Shown one piece after another: positions 9,976-51,808 of a DNA stretch of 64,000 nt. The first letter of the stretch is position 1, and every line of letters begins with the position of its first letter. Both the position numbers and the translations under genes were made by a program. Under the pieces are notes generated by a model, which was given only the letters and a program-made list of their open reading frames with translations, was not told the origin of the DNA and did no database searches. This stretch comes from Sialis fuliginosa (taxonomy: Eukaryota > Arthropoda > Insecta > Megaloptera > Sialidae): positions 558,001 through 622,000 of the forward strand of contig OY540810.1 of NCBI GenBank assembly GCA_961205875.1, given 5' to 3'.

Positions 9976-10155
9976 AATCTTGGCTTCTGGGTGTAAGCCG
10001 TGTCGGTTTGGTCGTGTTATCGGCCAACGTTTCGTCACACATTGCAGTCGTGGACATCTTCAGGCCGATAACACGACTAAACCGACGCGACTTACACCCA
10101 GAATCCAAGATCCGTATCAAGATCACCGCGGAAGCCTCAAGACTTGTTTAATTCA
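9976..10155 (-). mobile_element. Penelope-type terminal hairpin element, family 5 (copy 1)
   Basis: Two arms of about 50 bp (9976-10025 and 10064-10113) are inverted repeats of each other; both include GTGTTATCGGCC or its complement. They flank a 38-bp core with the minus-strand motif CTGAAGA-T-hairpin-GAAACGTT. The right side continues CACCGCGGAAGCCTCAAGAC, which recurs at 49240-49275. No reverse transcriptase is present. Penelope assignment rests on the motif and is inference. Confidence 0.65.
10026..10063 (-). ncRNA. Hammerhead-like motif, family 5
   Basis: On the minus strand: CTGAAGA, one T, a hairpin pairing GT(CC)CAC with GTGAC around TGCAATGT, then GAAACGTT. The outer arms can pair as stem I over at least nine bases. 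The self-complementary ACGT after GAA could form stem III between two molecules. Compared with the canonical hammerhead there is one extra base before stem II, so activity is unproven. Confidence 0.5.
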
Positions 10156-10374
10156 TAGATATGTTCTTTGGCCAGGTTTTAGTATATATTTTGTTACGTT
10201 AGGTAACATAAGGAATAAGCAGTGACGATAATAGTAAAATGTTTTTGCAATACACTGCCTAAACCGTTAAATATTGAACAAAATAATGTAATAAAGAATT
10301 GTGTAGAATTAAAAGATCTAAAATAAAGTCCGCGATACCATATGTCTAACTTTTATATTTAAGCAACAATGACT

Positions 10375-10547
10375 GCTTTTATATTACAAAGAAAATTAAA
10401 AATATTTGTGTTTTGTTTACGTGGACTTATGACCTGCAAAACATTAATCCTTATCGAAATAAATGATTTCATCGTCATAAGTACTTAATGTAGATATAAT
10501 TTGCCCTTTACAGCATCCAATTTGATCGTATAGTTTAAGAAATAACT
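10375..10547 (+). repeat. Dispersed repeat family R, copy 1
   Basis: Reverse complement of 15815-15995. Shared landmarks are TTACGTGGACTTATGACCTG, AATCCTTATCGAAATAAATG and TTGCCCTTTACAGCATCCAA. No terminal structure was found. Confidence 0.75.
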
Positions 10548-10824
10548 TTAAATATGTTATATACGGTCAAAATTTTATTATTAAATGATTCAGTAAATAT
10601 ACTTAAAATATATTTTAAACGCGTAATTTCATGGCTCTAATTAAATTTTCACACATTTATTAGTAAATATTATAAAAATGGTTTACAGTTATTGTAATTT
10701 TTCAATAAATTCAATTATTATCTTGTGGAAATTAACATCTATATGTCAATATATCTTTATATACAGGCTGTTTTCTATTATTCATATTTATATGCAAGTT
10801 ACGAAATGTATAAAAAAACGTCTG

Positions 10825-11003
10825 TGTTTGTGCACGATTTTATCAATAACTACTGAACGGATTTTATTGCGGTTTTTACTTATGAATAGCGTGTTTTGCA
10901 AGGAAGATTTATGTATATAATTTTGTATAAATTAAAAAGTGAAAAATAGGTTTATTGCAGATTAAACTCATATCCCCGGGTAACACTGGGTCCAATGCGC
11001 TAG
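10825..11003 (+). mobile_element. Helitron-like 3' terminus
   Basis: Begins with the TCAATAACTACTGAACGGAT sentence shared with the Helitron-like elements at 367 and 40356. It ends with an imperfect GC-rich hairpin (CCCCGGGTAACACTGGG) followed by GCGCTAG and T. A hairpin plus CTAR before a host T is the Helitron 3' signature. The internal part is missing. Confidence 0.6.
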
Positions 11004-11073
11004 TAATTATTTTTCTGCGGTCAGATCAATTAAAACATTTTATATTTTGTTTGTCTGCCATATATATGTTCAC

Positions 11074-12133
11074 CAGTGGCGAGGCGTGAAATTTTTAATA
11101 AGGGAAATATATTTTGTTAATCCTCCCCCTCCTATTAACAAAAAAACTAGTTATGAAATAACTTAAGTTCAAGCTTTTACTTTTTTAAATAAATTCTTAT
11201 ATATTTATATAGTAACTAAATGATTCTACGTCTTATTTTCTTATATTTTAGTCGATATTTGTATGACGAGTTGAAGAAAATTTCACTAAAAAATTTATAA
11301 TTTTTGATTTCGTTAAATGTATGTTTATTGTATAGAAAATGGCGTGAAAAGTTGACTGTTTCAAACCGCAGGTCTGTATCTCAAACCGTTCTCGAGATAT
11401 AGCCTCTCAAAGTTTTAATTTTTTCAAATTTTTGGAGAAAAATGGCCATAACTTTTGAACGCGTGGTCGAAATTGATTTTAGTTGACGGATTTGAAATCA
11501 GCGTGTCAAAATCTATATAATGACATGTATAATACTTTAAAATTCGATAAAAAAATTTTGGCCAAAAATCGACATTTTTTTAAGGTATACCCCATTGAAT
11601 TTTTTCGATTTTTCGCGAAATTTTTTTTCCCGAATTTTAAGGTAATACACATGTCATTATATAGATTTTGACACGCTGATTCCAAATCCGTCAACTAAAA
11701 TCAATTCCGACCACGCGTTCAAAAATTATGGCCTTTTTTCTCCAAAAATTTAAAAAAACTAAAACTTTGAGAGGCTATATCTCGAGAACGATTTGAGATA
11801 CAGACCTGCGGTTTGGAACAGTCAACTTTTCACGCCATTTTCTATACAATAAACATACTTTTAACGAAATCAAAAATTCGATATTTTTTAGTGAAATTTC
11901 CTTCAACTCGTCATACAAATAACGACTAAAATACAAGAAAATAAGGTATTATAGTTGTATAATTGAGAGTGTAAATTAATATTAAATGCTATTTTTATTT
12001 AAAATGATTGAGTTGCGCATAAAGACGAATATTCTAATAATATTTTTAAATTATTATTAACTGAAAACACAGATTTGTATTAATTTACCCATTAAGTAAG
12101 GGAAGCACTGCTTCCATGCACGCTTCGCCACTG
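11074..12133. mobile_element. Palindromic hAT-type element with 8-bp target duplication
   Basis: Ends CAGTGGCGAGGCGTG and CACGCTTCGCCACTG are inverted. The flanks are ATGTTCAC (11066-11073) and ATGTTTAC (12134-12141), an 8-bp duplication with one mismatch, as expected for hAT. Nearly the whole interior is an inverted repeat: the block CAGGTCTGTATCTCAAACCG at about 11370 is mirrored at about 11790. Two mirror 62-aa ORFs at the centre are palindrome by-products. No transposase. Other copies: 27150-28093, 29002-29290 (half) and 44940-45997. Confidence 0.85.
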
Positions 12134-12152
12134 ATGTTTACATACATATGTA

Positions 12153-12552
12153 CAGTCGCCTGCAGAACTCGTCTGGCACCCTAAAGGCTAGAATCGCTTA
12201 CAACAGATTCCAAATTTAAACACAAACATCATCGGTAATCTTTTTCTATCAACTTTAATATATATATTTAAATACTAAAATTCGGAATATCAAATATTTA
12301 TTGCCAGAAAATTTACGTATACAATTTTCAATAGATTACATAATAATTTAATTACACAAATATACATGAGTACCTATGTATTATAAACGAAGAGTAGTTC
12401 TTTATCTAGCAAATGAATTTCAAAATATTTGTCTTTGTTTGATACATGGAGAAATGATTTAAATATTATAATTGCACAAATGGGAGGAGTCTACTAAGTT
12501 TGTGATAAACGAAAATGAATACAAACTGCAAGACCATTAATGCAGGTGACTG
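12153..12552 (+). mobile_element. TA-target MITE (ACAGTCGCC family), complete
   Basis: 400-bp element with ends CAGTCGCCTGCAG and CTGCAGGTGACTG-type inverted termini. TA lies on both sides, as in Tc1/mariner-type insertions. It abuts the hAT element ending at 12133. Fragments occur at 6062-6227 (right half) and 16751-16855 (left half). Non-coding. Confidence 0.75.
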
Positions 12553-12774
12553 TACATATTTATTTGCATTCAGTTAAGGAAGCGTCGATTCTAAATCTAG
12601 GAGGTCGATGTGCAACTTAGCTTGCTTCAAAAATAATAAAATTAACATATGTGAATCATTGAAACGTGCCGGGAAAGCGCAATGTTTGTCGATTGAAGAT
12701 ATTGAACTTGTATCGATTAGTGTTGAAATTGAGTCATTTTATCAGATGTTAAAATACTAAACCCACAAAACATA

Positions 12775-13250
12775 TGAAAATGTCAAAATGACATTTAAAA
12801 CGTCAAAGTGACATTTAAAACGTCAAAGTGACATTTAATATATCCAATCAAATAATAAATAAATTGAGATAAATCTTTGTAAGCGAATATTTTACAACAA
12901 ACGTAGTAGACCCATATTATAGAAAATTTAATGCTCTACAAAAAATATTCTATAAAATTTTCTCGTAATATGTGTCGTTCTTGAGATATATTGAAAAAAT
13001 AAATATTTTGGGGTGTCAACCCTCCCCCTTACACACGATTTTGATGATTTTGAAATGGGGCCGTCCTCAAGCCAGACCCAACCATCCGACCAAATTTCAA
13101 TAATATCGGTTCAGTGGTTCATGAGTTATGCGTGTGACAAGGATTCAGGGAACAGACGGACGGACGGACAGACAGACACGGAACGAAAAGTGTTTGTCTT
13201 GACGTGAAACGGATAAATCAATTTAAAATTTTGAAATCTGAGAACAGTTT
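12775..13250 (+). mobile_element. Retroposon-G copy, 3' truncated
   Basis: Carries three GTCAAAGTGACATTTAAAAC-type steps, then ACAACAAACGTAGTAGACCC, CCTCCCCCTTACACACGAT, a (GACAGACG)-rich patch and TTGACGTGAAACGGAT. The family description is given at 54941-55605. The ORF at 13013-13207 is a repeat shadow. Confidence 0.8.
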
Positions 13251-13390
13251 TGTTCACAGAATTATTTTTTGTATTTACATTGTATTTTTTGGTACCTGAT
13301 GATGGACCGTAATAACGGTCCGAAACGTTGTCCAGAAATAAATAAACACAGTACATACCGGGAAGTTGATTTAACGATAACACTTTTGTT
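13251..13390 (+). mobile_element. Penelope-type terminal element, family 1
   Basis: Short segment joined to the end of the retroposon-G fragment. It holds the motif at 13296-13330 and the tail CCAGAAATAAATAAACACAG. Only one copy is in the window, so its limits are estimates. Confidence 0.45.
13296..13330 (+). ncRNA. Hammerhead-like motif, family 1 (best hairpin)
   Basis: CTGATGA, one T, a perfect 7-bp stem GGACCGT/ACGGTCC closed by AATA, then GAAACGTTG. This is the cleanest example in the window. ACGT after the GAA is self-complementary and is followed by T, fitting a two-molecule stem III with cleavage after U. The base before stem II is extra relative to the canonical core. Confidence 0.55.
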
Positions 13391-13576
13391 TATATAAAAT
13401 ATAAATAATCGATGAAATGGCGTATCTATATGTGAATGTAAACAGTTGACGGCAGGAATCTGTCAAATATTGGAAACATACAAATATATAAAACAAAATA
13501 CAAACAGAGAAAATAAGGCTTCTGTCAGAGATAACAGTGTAGTTTTTTTGATAATTTAAAAGGGAAAGCCACACAG

Positions 13577-13797
13577 ACGGTCCATCACTGCGTGCTCATT
13601 ACTGATTTTACCTGGAGAAATAACATGAACAAAATAAAAGGCTATAATTAAAAAAAAAAAACTTTATTTGCGGACTTTGGTAATTAAATTGATTAAATAA
13701 AGAGTTACTTGTTTTATTAGTAACATGAGTTCATGAGAAATACAAAAAAACAAGCCAATTAATCTTATAGCGGCCATAACTGGTGCGTTTACCTTAT
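13577..13797 (-). mobile_element. MITE-A fragment
   Basis: Runs from CACTGCGTGCTCATTACTG through AAAGGCTATAATT and TTACTTGTTTTATTAGTAAC to GCGGCCATAACTGGTGC and TTACCTTA. It lacks the other terminus. Confidence 0.8.
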
Positions 13798-13942
13798 CTA
13801 TACTTTATAATATCCAGAAATATTTACAGTTAAATATTTTAAACAGTTTTCTGGATTATAAATGGGCCACGTTTAAATACGCTCTTTGATCATTTCTTAG
13901 AGGTTTCCATTTTGATCTGAGTAACGCCAATAGGCATGAGTT

Positions 13943-14333
13943 CAGGGCCGTAATTACCCCGAGGTTAGAGGGGGGCCACAGCAGCGCAAAAATTGGAGTG
14001 AGCAAGAAAAAATAAATAAATTGAAGATTTTTAAAAATGTATTTGGTGCTAACTTGAAAATGTGATTTACTTATTACTAATTTTGATTTTAATAACATTT
14101 TTTCCGGCTTATCAACTTCAATTTTACACTTATTATCCGTTAAAATTACTAAGAAGTGTAAAATTCTAGCTGACAAGCGAAAAAAAGTCATTCAAATAAA
14201 AATTAGTAACAATTATGTAAAATTTGTAAGCTATGATCCAAAAAAAAGGTATTCAATTTTTATTTTTTGCATATTTGGGGGACCCTCGGTCACCTCTTGC
14301 CCCGGGGCCCCCGAACCTCTGGTTACGGCCCTG
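13943..14333. mobile_element. hAT MITE with perfect 8-bp target duplication
   Basis: Ends CAGGGCCGTAAT and, inverted, CAGGGCCGTAAC. Both flanks are CATGAGTT (13935-13942 and 14334-14341). The subterminal parts are GC-rich (GAGGTTAGAGGGGGGCC, CCCCGGGGCCCCCGAACC). The interior is AT-rich and non-coding. The minus-strand ORF at 13856-14191 crosses the left boundary and is not a gene. Confidence 0.9.
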
Positions 14334-14341
14334 CATGAGTT

Positions 14342-14580
14342 ACTTACTCATAGGTTTTCATCGCACAGCTTTTACAAATTATCTGTCAGTCGTTTGTAAA
14401 CAAAACTGATCTTATCGATTTATTATTAAGATGAATTGTATATTTCTATATTTCCCTTTAATCTTTGATATTGTAAATATTATACTGGGTTATTTTAGGC
14501 ACCTATTTAAAATGATACATCTAGTTGCTTATGAAAATTATAACCTAACCTCACCTCACTTTCTGATTTTATCAATCAAA
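14342..14580. other. No gene seen
   Basis: AT-rich spacer between the hAT MITE and the next MITE-A copy; nothing supported. Confidence 0.5.
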
Positions 14581-15058
14581 TAAGGTAAAGGTACCAGTTA
14601 TGGCCGCTATAAGAGCAAATTTTCGTTTTTTTTTTGATTAATGGGATTATTTTTTGTATTTCTCATGAACTCATGTTACTAATAAAATAACTAGCTCTTT
14701 ATTTAATCAATTTTTTTGTTTTTTAAATTATATCCTTTTATTTTGTTCATGTTTTTTCTCCAGGAAAACCAGTAATGAGCACGCAGTGATGGACACTTGC
14801 TAATGATAAGTACTACGACACAAAATATATAAAAGAAAGAATCGTCAAATTTGAAACAATGTAAAGCAATTTCTACGATAATATAATAATTAATAAATAA
14901 ATTATACCAATAATTAGTGTAAATGTCCACCATTTTGACACCTATTGGCCTCATGTGATGAAATCACGCTGTAAGACAGTTAAATGTATATAGATCAATA
15001 TTCAGAAATGGTAATAATCAAATATCAATTCAGTACATTTAATTAAAAAATAACCTTA
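14581..15058 (+). mobile_element. MITE-A copy with shortened right end
   Basis: Starts TAAGGTAAAGGTACCAG and TATGGCCGCTATAAGAGC. All internal landmarks are present, but the right end reads AATTAAAAAATAACCTTA, so the CCATTACTGGGG to TGGTGCCAG block is deleted. Confidence 0.85.
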
Positions 15059-15529
15059 TAAAAATGTGTTTTTTGATTGTTCCGCATTACCCACCGTTCC
15101 CCTACATATTTCTACACAACCCATGAATTGCATATTTTTGCTGAACTGACAAAAAAGTAACATATTAAAAAACAAGTGTATGTATTTAAAAAATGTGACC
15201 TAGAATCTGATTCTTTACAACAAACTATCGAAAAACTTTTATAAAATCGTACCTTGATTATAAAAAAAAATATATTAATTCGCCTGTACTAAAATCGTTT
15301 GAAGTTTGACATTCTAAATAATCTTTTTTCCGAGTCGCTGTTATATTTAGTAGGTCAGAATGCAGCCTAGAATTTACATATCTTCTTTAAATATCTAACT
15401 ATTGTACACGATTGGCTATTAAAAAAAAACTTGTTTTTTGCATCACTGATTATGTATGTGAAATTATTTCCTTTGTTCTAAGCTGATATATTTAAATATC
15501 GATTTAGGAAATCGATCGATTTATACAAA
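15059..15529. other. No gene seen
   Basis: AT-rich with A-runs. No frame or family recognised. Confidence 0.5.
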
Positions 15530-15800
15530 TACTAGCTGGGCCTGCGTGGACTACAGAATTATTGCTAAGGATTTAAAAATATATATAGTTTAATTAAGTA
15601 CAAACATGGTTAGTTATTATTGTAATAAAAACCAAACTAAAAATAATTTTTGTTCTATTTAAATTTAAAAGTTAATTATTGAAAACAAAAATAAACAATT
15701 GACAATCAAAAGATTACCGGCTTGTGATCATTCCCTCAGCTTGGCACGCTCCCTCCTTGCCGCACGCCGCGACACGGGTCGCCATCGCGCGAATAATATG
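15530..15800. mobile_element. Probable transposon terminal region
   Basis: Starts ACTAGCTGGGCCTGCGTGG, close to a start sentence (ACTAGCTG followed by GC-rich text) seen in several insect transposon families. A sharply GC-rich patch lies at 15735-15798 (CGCACGCCGCGACACGGG). The ORF 15699-15923 runs from this patch into family R sequence and is not called. Family assignment is uncertain. Confidence 0.35.
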
Positions 15801-15814
15801 TTCCCGTATGTATA

Positions 15815-15995
15815 TTTCACGATATTTTCTAAACTATACAACCAAATTGGATGCTGTAAAAGGCAAATTATATCTACATTAAGTACTTATGACGATGAAA
15901 TCATTTATTTCGATAAGGATTAATGTTTTGCAGGTCATAAGTCCACGTAAACAAAACCCAAATATTTTTAATTTTCTTTGTAACATAAAAACAGT
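15815..15995 (-). repeat. Dispersed repeat family R, copy 2
   Basis: Reverse complement of 10375-10547: CAAATTGGATGCTGTAAA, then CATTTATTTCGATAAGGATT and CAGGTCATAAGTCCACGTAA. Confidence 0.75.
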
Positions 15996-16062
15996 CATTG
16001 TGGATTAAATACAAAAGTAAGATATATGGTAACGTTGACTTTATAGTAGATCTTTTGATTCT

Positions 16063-16855: not shown

Positions 16856-16902
16856 GAGCTTATATAATTATATCATTTTAAATTTATTTTTTTTCAATAT
16901 TT

Positions 16903-17695
16903 TGCTTCCTCGCAATATCGAAGATACGAGAAGCTATGTGATCGTTTCAGATTGAGACAAAAAAAAAGTTCCCCAATTTCAAAATTTTAAATTTATTTAT
17001 CCGTTTCACGTCAAGGTAAACACTTTTCGTTCTGTGTCTGTCTGTCTGTCCGTGTGTCCATCCGTCCGTCCGTCTGTCCCCTGAATCCTTGTCACACGCA
17101 TAACTCATGAACCACTGAACCGATATTATTGGTCGGATGGTTGGGTTTGGTTTGAGGACGGTCCCATTTCAAAATCATCAAAATCGTGTGTAAGGGGGAG
17201 GGGTGACACCCCAAAATATTTATTTTTTCAAGATATCTCAAGAACGACACATGTTACGAGAAAATTTTATAGAATATTTTTTGTAGAGAATTAAATTTCC
17301 TATAATATGGGTCTACTACGTTTGTTGTAAAATATTCCCTTACAAAGATTTATCTCAATTAATTTTAAAAATTCGTGTTTTGTTTTTCTAAATTGATATT
17401 TGATTGGATATATTAAGTGTCATTTTGACGTTTTAAATGTCACTTTGGCGTTTTAAATGTCACTTTGACGTTTGCATAAATTTAGATTTAGATTGAAATT
17501 GTCAAAAAATTAAAAATATATGAAAAAATATTCAGGTGCGTTTTAAGAAAAAATTCGAACTAAGATTTTTTAGTAAAATTTGTATAAAAATTAAATGGTT
17601 AACCAATGCCAGGCAATTTATCTGAACACAATCGGTTTTAGTGAATTCAGCACGAGGAAGCACTGTGCATTTACTTGGCAGATGTTTTCAGTAAT
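16903..17695 (-). mobile_element. Retroposon-G, near full-length copy
   Basis: Spans from the 3' end (plus-strand TTTTGCTTCCTCGC) to the 5' end (TTACTTGGCAGATG) with all family landmarks. It includes the steps of GTCATTTTGACGTTTTAAAT type at 17420-17475 and the GTCTGTCTGTCTGTCC patch at 17037-17080. Non-coding. Directly followed by family P. Confidence 0.85.
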
Positions 17696-17699
17696 AATT

Positions 17700-22310: not shown

Positions 22311-22335
22311 CTCAAACTTTTTTTTTTTTTAATTA

Positions 22336-30928: not shown

Positions 30929-31029
30929 ATAACACAAAAAGAAGATTTAAACAATTGATTGACAAAAGTGAAGACAGAAATATTATAACCCCCAAATAAT
31001 GCAGTGTTTTTATTTTTGATGTAAAAGCA

Positions 31030-31059
31030 GGTTAGGTTAGGTTAGGTTAGGTTAGGTTA
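31030..31059. repeat. Interstitial (TTAGG)n block
   Basis: Five to six perfect GTTAG units in a row within GGTTAGGTTAGGTTAGG-type text. TTAGG is the telomere repeat of most insects. A short block far from other telomeric sequence probably reflects break repair or chance expansion. Confidence 0.9.
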
Positions 31060-32372: not shown

Positions 32373-32388
32373 TGCAATTAAGGGTTAA
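32373..32388 (+). repeat. Left 16-bp inverted repeat bounding the satellite array
   Basis: TGCAATTAAGGGTTAA, exact reverse complement of 35329-35344. Its last four bases TTAA overlap the first satellite unit. Confidence 0.85.
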
Positions 32389-35328
32389 AGATAATAGTGT
32401 AAGCTACATTTAAAAAAAAAACTGGAGTCTCCTCGATCGCGCCAAGTTGAGATATTAACTATTCAATTTACTTCTTTGTTAGCGTATGAGTTTTAATTTG
32501 TTTTTTTAGTTTTAACTTGTTTTTAAAAAGGGAAGGAGCACGCGAAGGTCTTTAAGTGCGTGATGCTCTTAAAGATAATAGTGTAAGCTACATTTTAAAA
32601 AAAAACTGGAGTCTCTTCGATCGCGCCAAGCTGAGATATTAACTATTCAATTTACTTCTTTGTTAGCGTATGAGTTTTAATTTGTTTTTTTAGTTTTAAC
32701 TTGTTTTTAAAAAGGGAAGGAGCACGCGAAGGTCTTTAAGTGCGTGATGCTCTTAAAGATAATAGTGTAAGCTACATTTTAAAAAAAAACTGGAGTCTCT
32801 TCGATCGCGCCAAGCTGAGATATTAACTATTCAATTTACTTCTTTGTTAGCGTATGAGTTTTAATTTGTTTTTTTAGTTTTAACTTGTTTTTAAAAAGGG
32901 AAGGAGCACGCGAAGGTCTTTAAGTGCGTGATGCTCTTAAAGATAATAGTGTAAGCTACATTTTAAAAAAAAACTGGAGTCTCTTCGATCGCGCCAAGCT
33001 GAGATATTAACTATTCAATTTACTTCTTTGTTAGCGTATGAGTTTTAATTTGTTTTTTTAGTTTTAACTTGTTTTTAAAAAGGGAAGGAGCACGCGAAGG
33101 TCTTTAAGTGCGTGATGCTCTTAAAGATAATAGTGTAAGCTACATTTAAAAAAAAAACTGGAGTCTCTTCGATCGCGCCAAGCTGAGATATTAACTATTC
33201 AATTTACTTCTTTGTTAGCGTATGAGTTTTAATTTGTTTTTTTAGTTTTAACTTGTTTTTAAAAAGGGAAGGAGCACGCGAAGGTCTTTAAGTGCGTGAT
33301 GCTCTTAAAGATAATAGTGTAAGCTACATTTTAAAAAAAACTGGAGTCTCTTCGATCGCGCCAAGCTGAGATATTAACTATTCAATTTACTTCTTTGTTA
33401 GCGTATGAGTTTTAATTTGTTTTTTTAGATTTAACTTGTTTTTAAAAAGGGAAGGAGCACGCGAAGGTCTTTAAGTGCGTGATGCTCTTAAAGATAATAG
33501 TGTAAGCTACATTTAAAAAAAAAACTGGAGTCTCTTCGATCGCGCCAAGCTGAAATATTAACTATTCAATTTACTTCTTTGTTAGCGTATGAGTTTTAAT
33601 TTGTTTTTTTAGTTTTAACTTGTTTTTAAAAAGGGAAGGAGCACGCGAAGGTCTTTAAGTGCGTGATGCTCTTAAAGATAATAGTGTAAGCTACATTTTA
33701 AAAAAAAACTGGAGTCTCTTCGATCGCGCCAAGCTGAGATATTAACTATTCAATTTACTTCTTTGTTAGCGTATGAGTTTTAATTTGTTTTTTTAGTTTT
33801 AACTTGTTTTTAAAAAGGGAAGGAGCACGCGAAGGTCTTTAAGTGCGTGATGCTCTTAAAGATAATAGTGTAAGCTACATTTTAAAAAAAAACTGGAGTC
33901 TCTTCGATCGCGCCAAGCTGAGATATTAACTATTCAATTTACTTCTTTGTTAGCGTATGAGTTTTAATTTGTTTTTTTAGTTTTAACTTGTTTTTAAAAA
34001 TGGAAGGAGCACGCGAAGGTCTTTAAGTGCGTGATGCTCTTAAAGATAATAGTGTAAGTTACATTTAAAAAAAAAAACTGGAGTCTCTTCGATCGCGCCA
34101 AGCTGAGATATTAACTATTCAATTTACTTCTTTGTTAGCGTATGAGTTTTAATTTGTTTTTTTTAGTTTTAACTTGTTTTTAAAAAGGGAAGGAGCACGC
34201 GAAGGTCTTTAAGTGCGTGATGCTCTTAAAGATAATAGTGTAAGCTACATTTTTAAAAAAAACTGGAGTCTCTTCGATCGCGCCAAGCTGAGATATTAAC
34301 TATTCAATTTACTTCTTTGTTAGCGTATGAGTTTTAATTTGTTTTTTTAGTTTTAACTTGTTTTTAAAAAGGGAAGGAGCACGCGAAGGTCTTTAAGTGC
34401 GTGATGCTCTTAAAGATAATAGTGTAAGCTACATTTTAAAAAAAAACTGGAGTCTCTTCGATCGCGCCAAGCTGAGATATTAACTATTCAATTTACTTCT
34501 TTGTTAGCGTATGAGTTTTAATTTGTTTTTTTAGTTTTAACTTGTTTTTAAAAAGGGAAGGAGCACGCGAAGGTCTTTAAGTGCGTGATGCTCTTAAAGA
34601 TAATAGTGTAAGCTACATTTAAAAAAAAAACTGGAGTCTCTTCGATCGCGCCAAGCTGAAATATTAACTATTCAATTTACTTCTTTGTTAGCGTATGAGT
34701 TTTAATTTGTTTTTTTAGTTTTAACTTGTTTTTAAAAAGGGAAGGAGCACGCGAAGGTCTTTAAGTGCGTGATGCTCTTAAAGATAATAGTGTAAGCTAC
34801 ATTTTAAAAAAAAACTGGAGTCTCTTCGATCGCGCCAAGCTGAGATATTAACTATTCAATTTACTTCTTTGTTAGCGTATGAGTTTTAATTTGTTTTTTT
34901 AGTTTTAACTTGTTTTTAAAAAGGGAAGGAGCACGCGAAGGTCTTTAAGTGCGTGATGCTCTTAAAGATAATAGTGTAAGCTACATTTTAAAAAAAAACT
35001 GGAGTCTCTTCGATCGCGCCAAGCTGAGATATTAACTATTCAATTTACTTCTTTGTTAGAGTATGAGTTTTAATTTGTTTTTTTAGTTTTAACTTGTTTT
35101 TAAAAAGGGAAGGAGCACGCGAAGGTCTTTAAGTGCGTGATGCTCTTAAAGATAATAGTGTAAGCTACATTTAAAAAAAAACTGGAGTCTCTTCGATCGC
35201 GCCAAGCTGAGATATTAACTATTCAATTTACTTCTTTGTTAGCGTATGAGTTTTAATTTGTTTTTTTAGTTTTAACTTGTTTTTAAAAAGGGAAGTAGCA
35301 CGCGAAGGTCTTTAAGTGCGTGATGCTC
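32385..35328 (+). repeat. 184-bp satellite array, 16 units
   Basis: Units begin TTAAAGATAATAGTGTAAGC at 32385, 32569, 32753, 32937, 33121, 33305, 33488, 33672, 33856, 34040, 34226, 34410, 34594, 34778, 34962 and 35146. Periods are 183-186 bp and total exactly 16 x 184. Units are nearly identical, differing mainly in A-run length and a few substitutions (GAGATATT versus GAAATATT at 33554 and 34659; GTTAGAGTATG at 35058). A reverse-oriented 161-bp relative lies at 49621-50191. High identity implies recent expansion or homogenisation. No coding frame. Confidence 0.97.
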
Positions 35329-35344
35329 TTAACCCTTAATTGCA
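35329..35344 (-). repeat. Right 16-bp inverted repeat bounding the satellite array
   Basis: TTAACCCTTAATTGCA, exact inverse of 32373-32388. Confidence 0.85.
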
Positions 35345-35935: not shown

Positions 35936-36103
35936 TTTTGCAGAAAAAATCAAAACTATTATTCAAAAAATATATATAGCTTAAATTTGGCGCCCTAGAA
36001 CAGAACATAGAAAAAAAGTTTAAAATAATTGGCGCCCCCACAAAATTAGCGCCCCAGGCTATCGCCTGGGTCGCCTGGCCGTTCGGCCGGCCCTGACGAA
36101 CTT

Positions 36104-39785: not shown

Positions 39786-39793
39786 AATATAAT

Positions 39794-42176: not shown

Positions 42177-42209
42177 ACGTGTTTCGACTTCACAAGAAGT
42201 CCTCATCAG
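42177..42209 (-). ncRNA. Hammerhead-like motif, family 2
   Basis: Minus strand: CTGATGA, one G, 6-bp stem GACTTC/GAAGTC with loop TTGT, then GAAACACGTA. The stem is perfect. Bases outside the core do not give an obvious stem I, so this copy is less convincing as a ribozyme. Confidence 0.45.
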
Positions 42210-42664
42210 GAGCCTAAAAAGTTATATTTTCTTTAACAAAGCGATATTATTTATATATAGTTTTTTTTTACCTAAATTTATTTTAGTTACGCCGCCACTG
42301 CATATATCAATTATATATATAAAATATTTTGAACAATATTAATCAGTATTGTTTTTGTTCCAATGATTACTATCAACAAAGTTATTTTCAAATTTAAGTA
42401 AATTAATTTTCTTTATTCATTATTATAGCATTTTTTTTTAATATTACCCATAATACTGAATGAAATAATTTAAAAAAATGAATCATTCATATTAATTAAT
42501 TATTGATTATCGATTTGCAATTCATTGATTGATAAAATATTATGTATTTGTTGACTGGAACATTAAGCAATAATTATATGATTAAGAATTATTATTGTAG
42601 TATAATATAAAAATAAATCATTTAAGGTTATCGTTATTTAATTAAATTGACCATATTTTTATTT
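42210..42664. other. No gene seen
   Basis: Very AT-rich; no frame or repeat family. Confidence 0.5.
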
Positions 42665-42745
42665 AAAAGTATTTATTTTTTAGAGGTTTGGTCATTGGTT
42701 TATTTAAAAAAATATAAACATATTTCTTTAAAATATTATATTTCA

Positions 42746-42775
42746 GACGTTTCGACCATTGTTAGTCTTCATCAG
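42746..42775 (-). ncRNA. Hammerhead-like motif, family 3 (left arm)
   Basis: Minus strand: CTGATGA, one A, stem GACTA/TGGTC (one G-T pair) with loop ACAA, then GAAACGTC. The sequence after the core is TG, which can pair with CA just before CTGATGA as a minimal stem I. Confidence 0.5.
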
Positions 42776-42967
42776 TGTCTTACTCCTGTAATATTCTACA
42801 TATTATGCCTTTAATAATATTATATTGTAAGTTAACAATGTATCCATTTTCTAACTAATGTAGTACTGTTTCAAACTTCCTACATTAGTTAGAAAATGGA
42901 TACATTGTTAACTTACAATATAATATTATTAAAGGAATAATATGTAGAATATTACAGGAGTAAGACA

Positions 42968-42997
42968 CTGATGAAGACTAACAATGGTCGAAACGTC
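42968..42997 (+). ncRNA. Hammerhead-like motif, family 3 (right arm)
   Basis: Same motif on the plus strand, identical in sequence to the copy in the left arm. Confidence 0.5.
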
Positions 42998-43080
42998 TGA
43001 AATATAATATTTTAAAGAAATATGTTTATATTTTTTTAAATAAACCAATAACCAAACCTCTAAAAAATAAATACTTTTAT

Positions 43081-43584
43081 TTAATTAAATACATATATTG
43101 GATAACAGGAAGAACTCATGTCAAAAAAATCGATATTTTTTTCTCTCGCTCTCGTTACGAAATAAAATATATAATATAAAATAAATAAATAAATAAATCC
43201 CCCCACATAGATTACCCCGTAGTCCTTAAAATTTTTCATCAGTTATCATGAATCAGTAATACATACCAACTTTAGTATTAAAGATTCATTTTCCCATGTA
43301 ATTTAAATCGAAAACGAGACCCCCTTAAAATTGATAATTTTTGCTTACCTAGTATGTCATTCTATATACATATTTTACAGCTATGGGTTTTAATAAAAAT
43401 TATAATGCCCTAATTATATAGGTACAGTTGCCTGTCCTCCACTTACAAAAGAATAGGTTAATTTTATGCATAAACCTCGCATTTTTGCACTGATAAAATC
43501 TTGCAAAACCAGACTTGCACTATTAAATGTTACCTCATAGTATAATTACATACATATTTTTCAATTATATACACTTTTCTCTCG
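43081..43584. other. No gene seen
   Basis: AT-rich, with CCCC patches near 43200 and 43320; nothing supported. Confidence 0.5.
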
Positions 43585-44931: not shown

Positions 44932-44939
44932 ATATATGT

Positions 44940-45997
44940 CAGTGGCGAAGCGTCCATGGAAGCAGGGGAAGCAGTGCTTCCCTTTCTTTATGGGTAAATT
45001 AATACAAATCTGTATTTTCAGTTAATAAATAAATTAAAAATATTATTAGAATATTCATCTTTATGCGCAAATATTTTAACCAAAAATTAAAAATAGCATT
45101 TAATATTAATTTACACTCTCAATTATAAAACTATAATACATCTACGTCTTATTTTCTTGTATTTTAGTCGATATTTGTATGACGAATTGAAGTTCACTGA
45201 AGGAAATTTCACTAAAAAATTTTGATTTGTTTACTGTATAGAAAATGACGTGAAAAGTTGAATGCTTCAAACCGCAGGTCTGTATCTCAAACCGTTCTCG
45301 AGATATAGCCTCTCAAAGTTTCAGTTTTTTCAAAATTTTGAAGAAAAAAGGTCATAACTTTTGAACGCGTGGTCGGAATTGATTTTAGTTGACGGATTTG
45401 GAATCAGCGTGTCAAAATCTATATAATGACATGTATAATACTTTAAAATTCGACAAAAAAATTTTGGTCAAAAATCGACATTTTTTTAAGGTATACCCCT
45501 TTGAATTTTTTCGATTTTTCGCGAATTTTTTTTTTTCGAGTTTTAAGGTATTATACATGTCATTATATAGATTTTGACACGCTGATTCCAAATCCGCCAA
45601 CTAAAATTAATTCCGACCACGCGTTCAAAAGTTATGGCCTTTTTTCTCCAAAAATTTGAAAAAACTAAAACTTTGAGAGGCTATATCTCGAGAACGGTTT
45701 GAGATACAGACCTGCGGTTTGAAACAAACAACTTTTCACGTCATTTTCTATACAATAAACATACTTTTAACGAAATCAAAAATTCGAAAATTTTTAGTGA
45801 AATTTCCTTCAACTCGTCATACAAATATCGACTCAAAAGACGTAGAATCATTTAGTTACTATATAAATATATAAGAATTTATTTTAAAAAGTAAAAGCTT
45901 GAACTTAAGGTGTTTCATAACTAGTTTTTTTGTTAATAGGAATGGGAGGATTGGCAAAATATGCTTCCCTTATTAAAAACTTCACGCCTCGCCACTG
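44940..45997. mobile_element. Palindromic hAT-type element, complete, 8-bp target duplication
   Basis: Ends CAGTGGCGAAGCGTCC and, inverted, CAGTGGCGAGGCGTG. Both flanks ATATATGT (44932-44939, 45998-46005), exact. 1058 bp, almost the same length as the copy at 11074-12133. The arms mirror through a centre near 45490: CAGGTCTGTATCTCAAACCG at 45275 is inverted at 45690. It carries no transposase. The two central 62-aa ORFs (45389-45577 plus, 45412-45600 minus) are the same text read on both strands of the palindrome. Confidence 0.92.
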
Positions 45998-46177
45998 ATA
46001 TATGTATTTCTCATGGACCATTCGAATAGTTTTAATGTCCACATCAGATCTAGAGCAATAAAATTGGTTTATAATTTAAGTATAGCCACTAATGAGATTG
46101 AGGTTCGGTAATAATTTTTTTTTAATGTCTGTGTTACTATGTACTTTCGATCACACGTAATAAGGTGAGTATAAAAC

Positions 46178-46340
46178 ATCTGCCAAGTAAATACACAGTG
46201 CTTCCTCGTGCTAAATTCAACAAAGGTAATTAATTATTCAACAATTTAAATAAAACCCGATAGTGTTTATATAAACTTCCAGGAATTGGTTAACCGTTTA
46301 ATTTTTATACAATTTTACAAAAAAAATATTAGTTCGAATA
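46178..46340 (+). mobile_element. Retroposon-G fragment, 5' end only
   Basis: ATCTGCCAAGTAAATACACA to AATATTAGTTCGAA; the rest is absent. Confidence 0.75.
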
Positions 46341-46573
46341 AAAACTAAAATTATTATTTTTTGGTCAATTCATAAAGGATACAAAAAAAAGAATAGAACA
46401 TAAATTATAGAAAATATTGTTCTCTACAACTTTTATTACAAACATTTTATTCTCTGTTATGCACCATTTGAAATAAAACGATTATTTCCTTACACAATTT
46501 TTTTTAAATATGATTACAACAAAAATTATAGATAATAATATTCTCTGTAACTTGAATCTAAAACATTTTATAT
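46341..46573. other. No gene seen
   Basis: AT-rich; the phrase ATTATAGATAATAATATTCTC resembles the interior of family Y at 7245. Confidence 0.4.
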
Positions 46574-46843
46574 CTTTTGTGTCGTAGTACCTATCATTAG
46601 CAAGTGTCCATCACTGGGTGTCCATTACTGGTTTTACTTTATCCATTACTGGTGAAAAAACATGAACAAAATAAAAGGCTATAATTAAAAAAACAAACTA
46701 TATTTGCGGACTTTGGTAATTAAATTGATTAAATAAAGAGTAACTTGTTTTATTAGTAACATGAATTCATGAGAATTACAAAAAAGAATACAAAAACAGT
46801 AAACCTTGCTCTTATAGCGGCCATAACTGGTGCCAGTACCTTA
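46574..46843 (-). mobile_element. MITE-A fragment with intact terminus
   Basis: From GTGTCGTAGTACCTATCATT through TTTGCGGACTTTGGTAATTA to GCGGCCATAACTGGTGCCAG and TACCTTA. Best example of the GGCCGC-containing terminus. Confidence 0.85.
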
Positions 46844-47390
46844 TTAATTTTTTTCTCAGTAGTTTTTTCCATAAATAATGTACTTACTTCTAATTATTCA
46901 TTCTGACTTCATATTTATGTATAAATTAACTTCGTTATCTGGTCTTCCTCTAAAAAGTAACCTAACCAATTATAAGCAACTCAGTGGACCAAAAATCCAG
47001 CTTCTGATTCGGCGCTAATTAACAAGATAAATAAATCATGTACCCACAATTCATATCGGTTGTCTCGTATACTATATACCAGTTTAATAATTATGTAAAT
47101 GATATATAGTTTTTAGATGGAGGTCTAGACTATGTTAGAACGACCCCGTATTGTTATAAATTTCAAAATTAATTAACCTATTTTGAACTGGTGTCCTAAC
47201 GTCTATTGTGGACCATAATGTAGGTCTCTATCTTTAAAACAGATCTAATAAAGCTGTTTTATGTTCTTTGGACTTGTTTTTAATTGATTTATTGGAGACC
47301 TGTGGTGTTCAATGAAGATTACAACTGAATCATTTTATCTATGTCTGTTTTTTTTGTATTATTTCTATGATTGAGTTTAATAAGGCGTGT
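46844..47390. other. No gene seen; comparatively unique DNA
   Basis: Mixed composition, no splice-flanked open stretch found. Confidence 0.45.
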
Positions 47391-47660
47391 ATTTAAATGC
47401 ACTTTTTAGGGTTCCGTAGAAAACTAGTTTCGCCATGTCCGCCCGTCCGTTCTCAAAAATTTTAAGCCGATTAAGATGAAATTTGGTGTACGGAAGACGA
47501 CTGATAACCCAAAAACAGAAATGATAATATTTTTGAAAAAAACATTTTTTTGGACCCCCTTTCCATAGACTGAAAAGTATTTTCAAAAAAAAAAATTCAC
47601 TTAATCCATTAAGTGGGGTGTCTTTAGATAGGTCTCCTAAAATGCAATATGACATTTTAA
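47391..47660. mobile_element. Transposon remnant with GGGTTCCGTAG phrase
   Basis: TTAGGGTTCCGTAG followed by CCGCCCGTCCGTTCTC and CGATTAAGATGAAATTTGGT resembles transposon-derived text seen in other insects. The 92-aa minus ORF is a shadow. No defined ends. Confidence 0.4.
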
Positions 47661-47794
47661 TTTTATCCCTTCAGTCACTTAATATTTTCAGTATCAAATG
47701 ATTGTGCAGTTATTACTGACTAGTTTAAATTGAATATGACGCCAATTTTCTTTGCATATTTGCCTTATGATAGGAAATTGTAAAAAATGTCAAC

Positions 47795-48655
47795 TACAGT
47801 GCACTTGCCCCATTTTCGTAGTTATAAACGCTTTGAAGCATTATTTCATATGCTAGAATTGTGAATACGCCTAGTATAAAATGCTTTTTACCGCATCAAG
47901 ATACGTTGTTTAGTTTTGGAGTAGTGAACTTTTTAAACAAGTTGGTTAACTTTTAGTAGTTCACTACATATTAGCTATTACAATTTCACTCGTATTATAA
48001 TAAAAAGAACCCGTTAATGAAAAACATTTTTACTATCCATTTTTTGGTATGATATTTATTGAAGTGGGAGCTACAAAAAAAACGGTGCACCCTGGTTGAC
48101 ATGATTCCAGCCCTTATAGTGATCTGAAACAAAAAATTTTGAAAAATTCTCAATCTGTAAAGATGTCGCTATCGCACTGACCTTAGCCAAAAAAAAAAAT
48201 AAAAATTCACAAAATGGCGTCGACATGAAAAATAAATTTTTTTTACTCCTTTTTTTTGACCTTTTCGAATTTTTTAAAAATACTCCAAATTGAATTTTTT
48301 TAAAATCCAAGGCAGACGCGATAGAGAGATATATAAAAAAGATTTCCACCAAATTTCAAAGGAATCGGTGGGGTAGAACTTGAGATATCATGTCAACCAC
48401 TTCAAAAAAGTAGTTTCGAGACAAACGCGTTTATTGTGTGATTCGTTCCACTCGGCCGGCTTAGATGCTACGTTACAAAATCCACTGTATCTCCGAAAAT
48501 AATTCGAATTTTGAAAAATCCATTTAAGGACATATTCTTAAGGGTCTAAACTTTGAAAATATGCAAAAAAATAATTGATTTCTTCAAATTTCTAGACTAG
48601 AATACCCCCTTAATGCACTTGCCCCGTTTCTGCACTTACCCCACTGCACCTTAGG
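47795..48655. mobile_element. Possible DNA element with CAGTG...CACTTGCCCC ends
   Basis: Left CAGTGCACTTGCCCCATTTT; right, inverted, CAGTGGGGTAAGTGCAGAAA then CGGGGCAAGTGCAT. An internal inverted pair GGTTGACATGATT (48094) and ATCATGTCAACC (48388) adds to the foldback character. No target duplication established. The 93-aa minus ORF is AT-driven and not called. Confidence 0.45.
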
Positions 48656-49224
48656 TATTTCTAGACAGTTTCATTAGCTATCGTGTAAATATGATAAAAA
48701 TGCATTGATTTGACATTTGTTTGACATTAGCTTTGTATCTGTTGACGTCAATGTCTTAATGCTCTACTCAATGTACTGTACGTGTAAATACGAACACACC
48801 ATTTGCTGAGTGGAGTATTTATTCTTTAACCTTTTATTCTATTACTGTAACGTACAGTTCTATTTTTAGTGCTATTAGTTCGTAAAAAAATATGTACTTA
48901 TTTAAATTTATTATTTTATTCATAAAGGAAGTGGGTAAGCTTGGACGTTTCTGAACCAACGTTTCGTTACATAATAAATAATTTTTAAAACTACTAGGGA
49001 AAATTTCTATAAAATCTGACATATCCATTCTTAATTCTGAACAACAATTATAAAATATTATCTAAATATTAAATATTCATGCATGTTTTGCTGCAAACAC
49101 CTGTTTATATGTTATACGGAGAATCTAGTTTATGTAAATTCAAATTACAGGTGTAAAATGTACTTATTTATATACAAAAATACTAAATATATCTCTCGCT
49201 TTGAAAAGTGTTAAATTATAATAT
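48656..49224. other. No gene seen
   Basis: AT-rich; the 64-aa minus ORF at 48834-49028 has no recognised domain and is not called. Confidence 0.5.
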
Positions 49225-49336
49225 TTATAAATTATTTCGGTTAATGATTATACAAGTCTCGAGGCTTCCGCGGTGGTCTTGATATGGATCTTGGCTTCTG
49301 GGTGTAAGTCGCGTCGGTTTGGTCATGTTATCGGCC

Positions 49337-49371
49337 AACGTTTCGTCACACATTGCAGTGGACATCTTCAG
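49337..49371 (-). ncRNA. Hammerhead-like motif, family 5 (left)
   Basis: Minus strand: CTGAAGA, one T, a hairpin of GT(C)CAC with GTGAC around TGCAATGT, then GAAACGTT. It lacks the AC insertion seen in the 10-kb copy (CCACGACTGC versus CCACTGC). Confidence 0.5.
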
Positions 49372-49402
49372 GGCTCTTCTAAAAGTGCCCTGAAGAAGAG
49401 TC

Positions 49403-49437
49403 CTGCAGATGTCCACTGCAATGTGTGACGAAACGTT
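49403..49437 (+). ncRNA. Hammerhead-like motif, family 5 (right), core mutated
   Basis: Plus strand: CTGCAGA replaces CTGAAGA, changing an invariant core A to C, followed by the same hairpin and GAAACGTT. Expected to be inactive if the motif is a ribozyme. Confidence 0.45.
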
Positions 49438-49620
49438 GGCCGATAACACGACCAAACCGACTCGGTTAATGATTGTATGGTAACAATTTTCCTTTTAAAA
49501 TACCCCTAAGGTTTATATCTGAATCTAATTTTTTATTTATTTAATAGGTATATAAAAAGGTTGAGTTTGTTAAAGCAGATATAATATCCTTTATATTATA
49601 TTATAATCCTTTATAGTATC

Positions 49621-50191
49621 GGACATAAGACTATCTAATGCCCGAAGACCTTCGTAACCGCCTTCGGCTATTATTAAGAAATTTAAATTGAAAATTTAAC
49701 AAATAAGTTGAATAGTTAATATGTCAGCTTGGCGCGATCGAAGAGACTCCAGTTTTTTTTTTAAATATAGCTTACACCTTTATCTTTAAGACTATCTAAT
49801 GCCCGAAGACCTTCGCATGTGCCTTCGGCTATTATTAAGAAATTTAAATTGGAAATTTAACAAATAAGTTGAATAGTTAATATGTCAGCTTGGCGCGATC
49901 GAGGAGACTCCAGTTTTTTTTTTAAATACAGCTTACACCATTATCTTTAAGACTATCTAATGCCCGAAGACCTTCGTAACCTCCTTCGACTGTTATTAAG
50001 AAATTTAAATTGAAAATTTAACAAATAAGTTGAATAGTTAATATGTCAGCTTGGCGCGATCGAGGAGACTCCAGTTTTTTTTTTAAATATAGCTTACACC
50101 ATTATCTTTAAGACTATCTAATGCCCGAAGACCTTCGCATGTGCCTTCGGCTATTATTAAGAAATTTAAATTGGAAATTTAACAAATAAGT
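49621..50191 (-). repeat. 161-bp satellite-related array, about 3.5 units
   Basis: GGCGCGATCG begins at 49731, 49892 and 50053 (exactly 161 bp apart). Units carry AGCTTACACCATTATCTTTA, GCCCGAAGACCTTCG and AACAAATAAGTTGAATAGTT. They are the reverse complement of the 184-bp units, which have extra bases between TCCTTC and TTAACAAA equivalents. Alternate units differ as TCGTAACC or TCGCATGTGCC, hinting at a two-unit higher-order repeat. Confidence 0.85.
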
Positions 50192-50356
50192 TTTATAGTT
50201 TATAATAATTTTATAATTAGTTTAAATGTCCACCATTTTGACACCTATTGGCCTTATGTGATGAAATCACGCTGTAAGACAGTTAAATGTATATAGATTA
50301 ATATTCAGAAATGGTAGTAATCAAATATCAACAAATATTTCTTATTTAGTACCTTA
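50192..50356 (+). mobile_element. MITE-A fragment, right part
   Basis: Begins TTTATAATTAGTTTAAATGT directly after the 161-bp array and ends TTATTTAGTACCTTA, so the terminal TGGTGCCAG is deleted. Confidence 0.75.
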
Positions 50357-50758
50357 TAAAAAACATGTAATTTATCAAAAATTCAGATAATTTTTTAATG
50401 TTAATTAATAAACATTAGAGTACAAATTATGTTCATATAAATAACACATTAAAATAAAGTGACACATGAACTGCGATAGTTAATATTGATACAAGATTAA
50501 TAATAATTTTCTCAGCATGCGGGTCATAATTTAATAATCGAAACATATAATCTATCTTGAATGTCACCATATGTACATACATATATGATAAAATGAGTCA
50601 TACTTTATTTATAAATAATATATTAGTAATTACGTTCTTTACATTATATTATTATTCGGTCAAATAACCCGATCTCTACATTATTATTATTAATTTAATA
50701 AGTTTAATTTTTAGGTTAGACTAACCTACACCCATACAACCCACCCACAGTGCCTGAT
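50357..50758. other. No gene seen
   Basis: AT-rich; no frame or known repeat. Confidence 0.5.
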
Positions 50759-51338
50759 AAATATGGGCAAATCCACAGAACGTGGCCGCATTAGCTTTAA
50801 ATTAAAATACTCAAATGCTTCTTCAAAATGGAACATTGAACGCACACTCTTCTATGTCGTCTCAAAATCTTCGTAACAAAGAGAAGAATAATTGGTCTCA
50901 ATTTCAGGAGTGTGCTTCGGATGTTCCAAAAGTTACAGCAAATAAACGCTGAAATTGCCGTTCGCTGGATAAAACAATCGCGCATATGAAATGTAAGAGG
51001 TGTGCGCCTTTCAAACTCCGGGAAAAGGTTCATTGTACCAAAAAACATGTCCAGTAAAAATTTCAGATTCATTGGTTTGAATCTGAGAAAATTGCGGTGG
51101 TATGAATTTTTATTTTTTTAAAAGTTCCATTTTGAAAACGTAAAAATAACCGATTTTTCAATGCAAATTGTGCTGCAGTTTTGATATGAATCAAGCAATC
51201 GACTTGTAACTCCATGTTTACATCCACAATAAAGTATACTTTGAGTTCGTGTACTTATGGGTGGGTAATATACATTCCCACACGCGCACTATTGCCGTTC
51301 CCCCAAAGCGGCCACGTTCTGTGGATTTGCCCATATAC
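50759..51338. mobile_element. DNA element with 28-bp perfect inverted ends, containing repeat N
   Basis: TATGGGCAAATCCACAGAAC to GTGGCCGC at about 50762-50789 is exactly inverted at about 51308-51335. About 520 bp lie between. The inner 50993-51277 equals repeat N at 28693-28978. The remainder contains a 91-aa minus ORF (50797-51072) that spans the N boundary and matches no family I know. Superfamily not assigned; no clear target duplication. Confidence 0.75.
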
Positions 51339-51698
51339 AAAAAATATGTATATTCTGTTGAAAAAAGTGTTTAAAGAGAGAAAAATGTTTATTAAATTTA
51401 TTAAGGGGCAGACCCAGTTAGAATTTTGAAAAAATTCATTTTTTTTATTGCATTATCTCAAAGTAGAATATTTCATTATTTATCTGAAAATTTCAGACAA
51501 ATGTCCTGTCCATAGACGATTCAGTGTAAGTTCCAAAATAAATAAATTATCTGCATGCAATTCGTACTCAAAACTTTAAACGCGTTTTTATCGAAACCAT
51601 GTTTGTGATCACTGTAACTTGAAAACGGCTTTACCGATCGGTTTGAAATTTTTCCCACTTATTCTATATCAAATACAAATCCCCTAACCATAAAAATT
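51339..51698. other. No gene seen; transposon-like sentence
   Basis: CTGTAACTTGAAAACGGCTT and TACCGATCGGTTTGAAATTT are typical of degraded elements. The 71-aa ORF at 51214-51429 straddles an element boundary. Confidence 0.45.
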
Positions 51699-51713
51699 GT
51701 AAGAGTTTAGACT

Positions 51714-51748
51714 TACACGTGTTTCAATAGCAATGCTGTCATCATCAG
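51714..51748 (-). ncRNA. Hammerhead-like motif, family 4 (left), best stem I
   Basis: Minus strand: GGACT then CTGATGA, one T, hairpin GACAGC/GCTATT (one mismatch, one G-T), GAAACACGTGTA, then AGTCT. GGACT before the core pairs with AGTCT after GTA, giving stem I. ACACGTGT is self-complementary, so stem III could form between two molecules. Confidence 0.55.
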
Positions 51749-51773
51749 AGTCCTAAAGACACTGTCTATGTCT

Positions 51774-51808
51774 CTGATGATGAAAGCATTGCTATTGAAA
51801 CACGTGTA
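51774..51808 (+). ncRNA. Hammerhead-like motif, family 4 (right)
   Basis: Plus strand: CTGATGA, one T, hairpin GAAAGC/GCTATT, GAAACACGTGTA. Stem I pairing is only two bases here (CT/AG). Confidence 0.5.

Follow-up and report, generated by a model that had tools for sequence, protein, structure and literature searches.

Hammerhead-like motifs of the small Penelope type on short elements in the genome of Sialis fuliginosa

A stretch of 64,000 nucleotides from Sialis fuliginosa (GCA_961205875.1, contig OY540810.1, positions 558,001 to 622,000 of the forward strand), which we refer to as the window and number from its first letter, carries five sequence families of an RNA motif made up of CTGANGA, a hairpin and GAAAC; these families are named GTCC, GGACC, GACTTC, GACTA and AGC below. 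Our results support the reading of these motifs as hammerheads of the small Penelope type in which stem III is palindromic, the best reading that we have, and we consider it highly probable (approximately 0.88) that they are type I hammerheads of this small, dimer-prone kind, borne on short copies of Penelope-like elements (PLEs) that are non-autonomous or 5′-truncated. In the proposed fold, CUGANGA and GAAA would form the core, stem II would begin after one extra base, and stem III would be a palindrome of 4 or 8 nt (ACGU or ACACGUGU) that could pair properly only between two copies, with cleavage, presumably in such dimers, predicted after NUH and ahead of stem I. The elements would be mobilized in trans by resident PLEs and copied by the PLE reverse transcriptase (RT), often with priming on both cut DNA strands; two copies would then grow from the 3′ ends and meet head-to-head, and the expected outcome would be 3′ ends that point outward, an outer target-site duplication and a short tail on one arm.

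The window was searched for the pattern CTGANGA-hairpin-GAAAC, with shuffled sequence as a control. Eight exact matches were found against 0.45 expected, a number reached in none of 100 shuffles, and these lie at 10063 (−), 13296 (+), 42209 (−), 42775 (−), 42968 (+), 49371 (−), 51748 (−) and 51774 (+); a ninth copy, at 49403 (+), has its core mutated to CTGCAGA. All of the sites listed in an initial annotation of this stretch were thereby recovered, shifted by a few bases. Two other pattern-like strings, at 36093 (+) and 39432 (−), fall outside the five families and were set aside. Across the 392-Mb genome the exact pattern occurred 4603 + 4691 times, compared with 783 + 764 matches for the reversed pattern. 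When copies of each family were counted in the same genome with up to three mismatches, we obtained 62 for GGACC, 119 for GACTA, 883 for AGC, 1969 for GACTTC and 2929 for GTCC (5962 in sum), and the reversed control gave zero matches for each of the five families. The initial annotation had described the hairpins as paired in all families, and this holds overall, but the details of two families need correcting. In GTCC the hairpin should read GTCCAC/GTGTGAC, with a single bulged T, instead of GTCCAC/GTGAC, and a stem II pair of the AGC family is broken in both window copies; the AGC form GATAGC/GCTATT, which pairs throughout, was used as the query and was free of mismatches in the 100 places listed.

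The motif copies in the window, and the elements to which they belong, are given below; R1 is a covariance model built from five training sequences of three families, one of these in the window.

9962–10163, no strand: head-to-head GTCC element with the duplication AATTCATAGATATG at 9962–9975 and 10150–10163, its score matched by 1/100 shuffles; the final bases of the copy at 9962–9975 overlap the GTCC arm.
10030–10063, minus strand: GTCC hammerhead motif with a 3-nt insertion in stem-loop II (R1 match 10017–10072, E 0.0043); a second, inverted arm adjoins the core on the upstream side.
13296–13326, plus strand: GGACC hammerhead motif, an R1 training sequence; an inverted arm was searched for at this copy and none was found.
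42181–42209, minus strand: GACTTC hammerhead motif (R1 match, E 0.22); an inverted arm was searched for and none was found at this locus.
42634–43090, no strand: head-to-head GACTA insertion with arms at 42664–43079 that are 97.4% identical, a 14-bp duplication, TTATTTAATTAAAT, at 42634–42647 and 43077–43090, and a 16-nt tail (42648–42663) on the left arm only.
42749–42775, minus strand: GACTA hammerhead motif of the left arm (R1, E 0.0014).
42968–42994, plus strand: GACTA hammerhead motif of the right arm (R1, E 0.0014).
49239–49474, no strand: head-to-head GTCC insertion (L014) with the candidate duplication GGTTAATGATT at both ends, identified by eye; the systematic arm search reported no arms here, whereas a separate comparison, as L014, did.
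49340–49371, minus strand: GTCC hammerhead motif (R1, E 8.6e-5).
49403–49434, plus strand: GTCC motif of the right arm, with the mutated core CTGCAGA (R1, E 0.01).
51699–51823, no strand: head-to-head AGC arms from the arm search; a significant target-site duplication was not found at this pair (94/100 shuffles were as good).
51721–51748, minus strand: AGC hammerhead motif of the left arm, a pattern match missed by R1.
51774–51801, plus strand: AGC hammerhead motif of the right arm, a pattern match missed by R1.

The stems of the proposed fold were assessed by comparison between families. For stem II we compared 15 families through hand-picked representatives, namely the five of the window and ten others of the same genome, among them, in addition to the PLE copy L050 described below, five PLE loci; in the longer PLE motifs, stem III was assigned its length manually, with stem I in view. 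When one base was skipped after CTGANGA, 55 of 60 stem II bases were paired, compared with 29/60 and 27/60 in the neighbouring registers, and the value without a skip (29/60) is approximately that expected by chance (shuffled mean 25.6). The one-base register was the best in 14 of the 15 families, with a tie in GGCCGA, so that the extra base before stem II, to which the initial annotation had drawn attention as the unusual feature of every family, is borne out. In all 15 families U16.1 is kept and H17, the base that precedes the predicted cleavage bond, is never G; this core conservation is weak by itself, since the representatives were chosen by hand and had been searched for by means of the core. 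Stem I was examined in ten families (the five window families and five others of the genome, one hand-picked copy each), with the register set by the letters of stem III, which are ACGT, ACACGTGT or, in L026, ACCT, and with flanks that had already been inspected before the test was run. With three bases counted to either side of the core, 27/30 were paired in the exact hammerhead register, against 7 to 10 of 30 in registers shifted by one or two bases, and shuffled partners gave a mean of 12.6 and a maximum of 26 in 200,000 permutations. The pairing and covariation of stem I in exact register and the sharing of the motif by PLE copies of the same genome both uphold the hammerhead identity that had been proposed. 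Stem III was likewise correctly described as self-complementary, since the five families of the window have ACGT or ACACGTGT, with the exception of the window copy at 42209, which has ACACGTAT at this position.

Compensatory change within a family, as expected for selection on RNA structure, was found in GGACC, where 16 of the 62 copies carry GGGCCGT/ACGGCCC instead of GGACCGT/ACGGTCC and none has just one of the two changes; these 16 copies probably represent one compensatory change, shared by descent from a single event. Folding of the GGACC sequence also beats 199/200 shuffles. In alignment A3, which holds 17 matches (13 distinct) and, being built with a covariance model, is fitted to the structure and biased towards it, 95.8% of the cells are paired and two-sided changes occur in seven of the eight pairs, compared with 26–46% pairing in slid controls; an alignment made with MAFFT (A1) was set aside, as stem II was misplaced in it. 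The initial annotation had also called for a covariance-model check; R1 ranks the window GTCC and GACTA copies at E 8.6e-5 to 0.01, and no Rfam call was obtained. The PLE copy L050 was matched by R1 at E 6.4e-6. Further R1 matches at 52.4–53.2 kb (E 0.44–0.74) lie in a tandem repeat, where the stretch was read and had no core, and were rejected, and Rfam microRNA matches, which fall mostly on long head-to-head arms, were not taken as microRNAs.

A connection with PLEs was found through their coding sequences. A genome search for the GIY-YIG domain gave two matches, one of which, L050, contains both RVT_1 (E 1.1e-10) and GIY-YIG (E 1.9e-6). Because the RT and GIY-YIG domains fall in different frames, this copy is probably broken. 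Its motif lies approximately 600 nt 3′ of the endonuclease and on the same strand. A search with the RT of L050 yielded 489 candidates, 120 of which were scored, and many of these matches lie in 896-aa open frames with a tandem period of 3560 bp. Using a relaxed pattern (GAAA in place of GAAAC), we found a hairpin motif in non-coding sequence beside the frame in 15 of 16 further PLE loci, which were drawn from 30 fetched and many of which are near-identical; the relaxed pattern matches by chance elsewhere, and the matches accepted were those at a consistent place with a pairing stem. The hairpin motifs of these loci also carry the extra base. L053, L056, L059 and L075 were assigned to PLEs via their similarity to L050, including similarity in the endonuclease; for L075, L059 and L053, neither RT nor GIY-YIG was found by Pfam in the PLE protein, and the RT of L056 scored 29.2 bits, just under the cut-off.

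Two of the five window families are linked to PLE coding sequence. The 332-bp tandem unit of GACTA in the array L104 encodes a 74-aa peptide, starting MVIYIN, that aligns with two PLE frames at their N-termini (E 1.25e-9 and 1.5e-6). In L032 and L029, longer relatives of GACTTC, GIY-YIG remnants precede the motif by approximately 160 and 330 nt; that of L032 is matched by Pfam GIY-YIG at E 4.5e-5, and the piece of L029 that lies in the orientation of the motif is weak (E 0.001). The remaining families, GTCC, AGC and GGACC, are placed with PLEs by their motif and insertion marks.

Several results weigh against this assignment. Stem I has only two of three base pairs in GACTA, GGACC, L026 and L059. 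With R1, the GACTTC copy of the window scores only E 0.22 and the AGC copies of the window are missed. No Rfam hammerhead reached the gathering score in the window, a single Hammerhead_1 match (18.9 bits against a cut-off of 34) was obtained among 20 motif loci, and 13 PLE loci gave no Rfam hammerhead match up to E 10. Single-sequence folding of seven sequences produced stems I and II together in three (GTCC, GACTCC and L053), whereas for AGC and L075 most shuffles gave a better fold. With regard to the PLEs, the strict GAAAC pattern occurs in one copy only (L050/L051), the other PLEs have GAAA followed by a longer, A/U-rich stem III, and no coding link to a PLE was found for GTCC, AGC and GGACC.

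We also made some observations on the PLE loci themselves. In L053, L055, L056, L070 and L075 the A/U stem III measures 5–7 bp in four of the five and its loop holds the palindrome AGCGCT, and L059 has a 14-nt palindrome centred on AGCT; such loop palindromes could pair two RNAs. Two contigs end within PLE coding sequence, in the last 300 bp of C3 (L099) and the first 300 bp of C10 (L100), with 99 and 100% identity to the L075 protein, and PLE arrays lie less than approximately 150 kb from the CCTAA ends of C7 (62–90 kb) and C5 (142–147 kb). The repeat CCTAA/TTAGG is the usual telomere repeat of arthropods. The six contig ends examined comprise two of pure CCTAA repeats, two of PLE coding sequence and two of N; a subtelomeric preference of PLEs is possible, as are assembly breaks in their arrays.

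The arrangement of the copies was examined in the best 462 of the 5962. Among the matches listed, neighbours at up to 1 kb comprised 55 head-to-head, one tail-to-tail and nine head-to-tail pairs, the only tail-to-tail pair being that at G000:C3:20605836 (+) and 20605951 (−). A similar outward trend is seen in the 120 scored PLE matches, in which neighbours at up to 12 kb were head-to-head in 23, tail-to-tail in six and head-to-tail in 48 cases, and the arrays of 3.56-kb PLE units are also mostly oriented outward from a centre. Arms and duplications were then assessed at 26 distinct loci, many of them picked for known pairs, with 100 shuffles each. Arms were found in 19 of these loci and none in seven. 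Among the 19 armed loci, the outer direct repeat was matched by at most 5/100 shuffles in ten and fell short of this in nine; in 11, the repeat adjoins one arm but is separated from the other by 25–32 nt, and eight of these 11 belong to the significant ten, the repeat being non-significant in the other three. An exact 14-bp repeat encloses the whole of the array L104, which consists of two units in each orientation, and the tail on one side of this array corresponds to the start-codon region of the PLE, reading into the start of the open reading frame (ORF); the GACTA element in the window follows the same plan. Copies of the short families have approximately 100–330 bp per arm. Head-to-head pairs, duplications and a one-sided tail are published PLE traits, and it is the families themselves that are new. 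Because they have been described for Penelope, with head-to-head pseudo-long terminal repeats (pLTRs), duplications of 8–10 bp and a 31-bp tail on one side (PMC3846280), these insertion marks assign the elements to PLEs and are not novel.

Head-to-head arms enclosed by target-site duplications would also be expected of Foldback or MITE (miniature inverted-repeat transposable element)-like DNA transposons with hairpin-like inverted repeats, but we regard this as very improbable: the inner structure is not constant, with 24 distinct start points in 32 loci, an extra tail is often present on one arm, solitary and tandem copies occur, and the PLE relatives encode RT and GIY-YIG. An explanation that we consider unlikely, though less so, is that the families are animal retrozymes, i.e. 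small tandem elements without long terminal repeats (non-LTR) that are cut to monomers and circularized. Tandem arrays do occur, of four 176-bp units in GACTTC, of three 187-bp units in GTCC and of 332-bp units in GACTA, and these lengths fall within the animal-retrozyme range of 170–400 nt stated in PMC7229834. However, head-to-tail arrangements make up nine of 65 close pairs among the matches listed, against 55 that are head-to-head, each 187-bp GTCC unit has an inverted piece inside it, GACTA contains PLE coding sequence, and animal retrozymes have been described with classical type I hammerheads, whereas the motif found here is of the small PLE type.

In order to read how the copies form, a set of junctions was taken from 40 GTCC loci that have no close exact partner, out of 100 exact places listed. 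This selection disfavours full-length second arms, and the loci were chosen for an intact first-arm motif, so that first arms cannot be counted. A second, inverted arm was present in 32 of the 40 copies, one or two of these arms being very short (18–19 nt). The 32 loci show 24 different inner start points, so that the pairs mostly arise anew at every insertion instead of being passed on as a fixed palindrome. The second arm starts before the predicted cleavage site in 21 of the 32, exactly there in none, one base after it in two, three bases after it in two and further downstream in seven. We therefore rejected a cleavage footprint, in which arm ends would cluster at the predicted site, as the four of 32 that lie near it form an apparent slight excess with no clear peak; at window copy 10063, judged by eye, the start of the second arm coincides with the predicted site provided that one shared C is included. 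Since the junctions are variable and not concentrated exactly at the predicted cleavage site, they favour two-sided priming on mostly uncut RNA, and they do not show that the motif is inactive.

Private variants were shared by the two arms of one locus 11 times against 4.6 expected in 29 loci, a value that was as high in 10 of 2000 permutations. As this exceeds the sharing between random pairs, the arms of one locus come from one source RNA or from closely related ones, or were homogenized later. The excess also fits an origin of the head-to-head pairs by self-priming of a single complementary DNA (a hairpin), as proposed for rotifer Penelope in PMC3846280, with copying of one arm, although one common source RNA or later conversion would also fit. 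The arms often differ in their 3′ start, with the tail on one side, which copy-back would not give, and a lizard PLE cleaves and extends both DNA strands in vitro (PMC11167929). On balance, priming on both cut strands is favoured, and self-priming is a possibility of clearly less than even probability.

A separate matter is whether the RNA is cut at all. The motif may be shaped like a hammerhead and yet be used uncut, as a binding, dimerization or start signal for the PLE RT, and this we consider possible, at odds well below even. The 21 of 32 second arms that read through the predicted cleavage site, with none starting exactly there, agree with such a use, as does the lizard PLE, for which PMC11167929 describes a hammerhead that cuts only with protein and core mutants that still insert in vitro. 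On the other hand, the retention of U16.1 and a non-G H17 in 15/15 families would be needless in a pure binding site; here it should be noted that these positions were placed manually in the longer PLE motifs and that the core conservation is partly built in. We put forward as a tentative and rather doubtful proposal that the genome may harbour thousands of tiny non-coding PLE parasites, down to approximately 105 nt in GTCC, inserted by both-strand priming from mostly uncut RNA, in which the hammerhead would serve for recognition, template-RNA pairing or control of template use and not for trimming every template. With many near-identical copies in one genome, the insertion step can be read from the junctions, in the form of two outward 3′ ends, duplications, tails and read-through of the cleavage site, which makes it directly testable whether self-priming or two-sided priming takes place and whether the templates are cut or uncut.

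The window has other features besides these elements. An interstitial telomere repeat of the TTAGG type, approximately six copies, lies at 31029–31059, and a nearly identical 20-bp unit (AAAACGTCAAAGTGACATTT or its complement) is repeated approximately three times at each of 12777–12838, 17413–17473 and 55353–55413. Tandem arrays at 32385–35332 (184-bp period) and 49626–50204 (161-bp period) apparently have a common segment in opposite orientation, as judged by eye from consensus units. At 53531–54589 on the minus strand there is a 352-aa open frame, which we take to resemble a Methuselah-like receptor in its outer part and first helices; Pfam gave no match to it at E 0.01.

Both the motif and its extra base have precedents. 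Minimal hammerhead motifs of PLEs were reportedly described by Cervera and de la Pena in 2014 and by Lunse, Weinberg and Breaker in 2017, and de la Pena and Flores are said to have described, in 2001, an extra nucleotide in a viroid hammerhead core, before stem II. An extra residue adjoining the core is thus a known variation; in contrast with the viroid case, it recurs here in the 15 compared families of one genome, one of them a tie. As far as citations and review descriptions of the minimal PLE motifs go, our families resemble them in the core, in the very short or palindromic stem III, in the logic of dimers and in thousands of dispersed copies, some of which may lie in PLE terminal repeats, but they are new sequence families, and in the long-frame PLEs of this genome the A/U stem III is longer. 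An extra base separates A9 from stem II in the families compared here. A 2020 review still called the role of the widespread PLE hammerheads unknown (PMC7761336), and further background on these hammerheads was drawn from PMC6155905, PMC7229834, PMC6466107, PMC11722881 and PMC6431247. Compared with Penelope of rotifers, flies and fish, as covered in PMC3846280, the likeness extends to inverted pLTRs that are mostly head-to-head, to duplications of 8–10 bp in the quoted cases and to an optional 31-bp tail on one inverted pLTR that enters the first codons; the short families differ in having approximately 100–330 bp per arm, and the 3.56-kb PLE arrays of this genome are also mostly directed outward. 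Small hammerhead units in tandem, a few hundred bp long, also occur in animal non-LTR retrozymes, but those described in PMC7229834 have classical type I hammerheads and circular RNA, whereas here a small PLE-type motif is accompanied by PLE insertion marks. Finally, in the Poseidon PLE of Anolis, as presented in PMC11167929, the hammerhead likewise lies near the ORF start, both DNA strands are cleaved and extended, and the RT starts inside the RNA, in agreement with the genomic tail; the evidence there is biochemical, whereas in Sialis fuliginosa it consists of genomic footprints.

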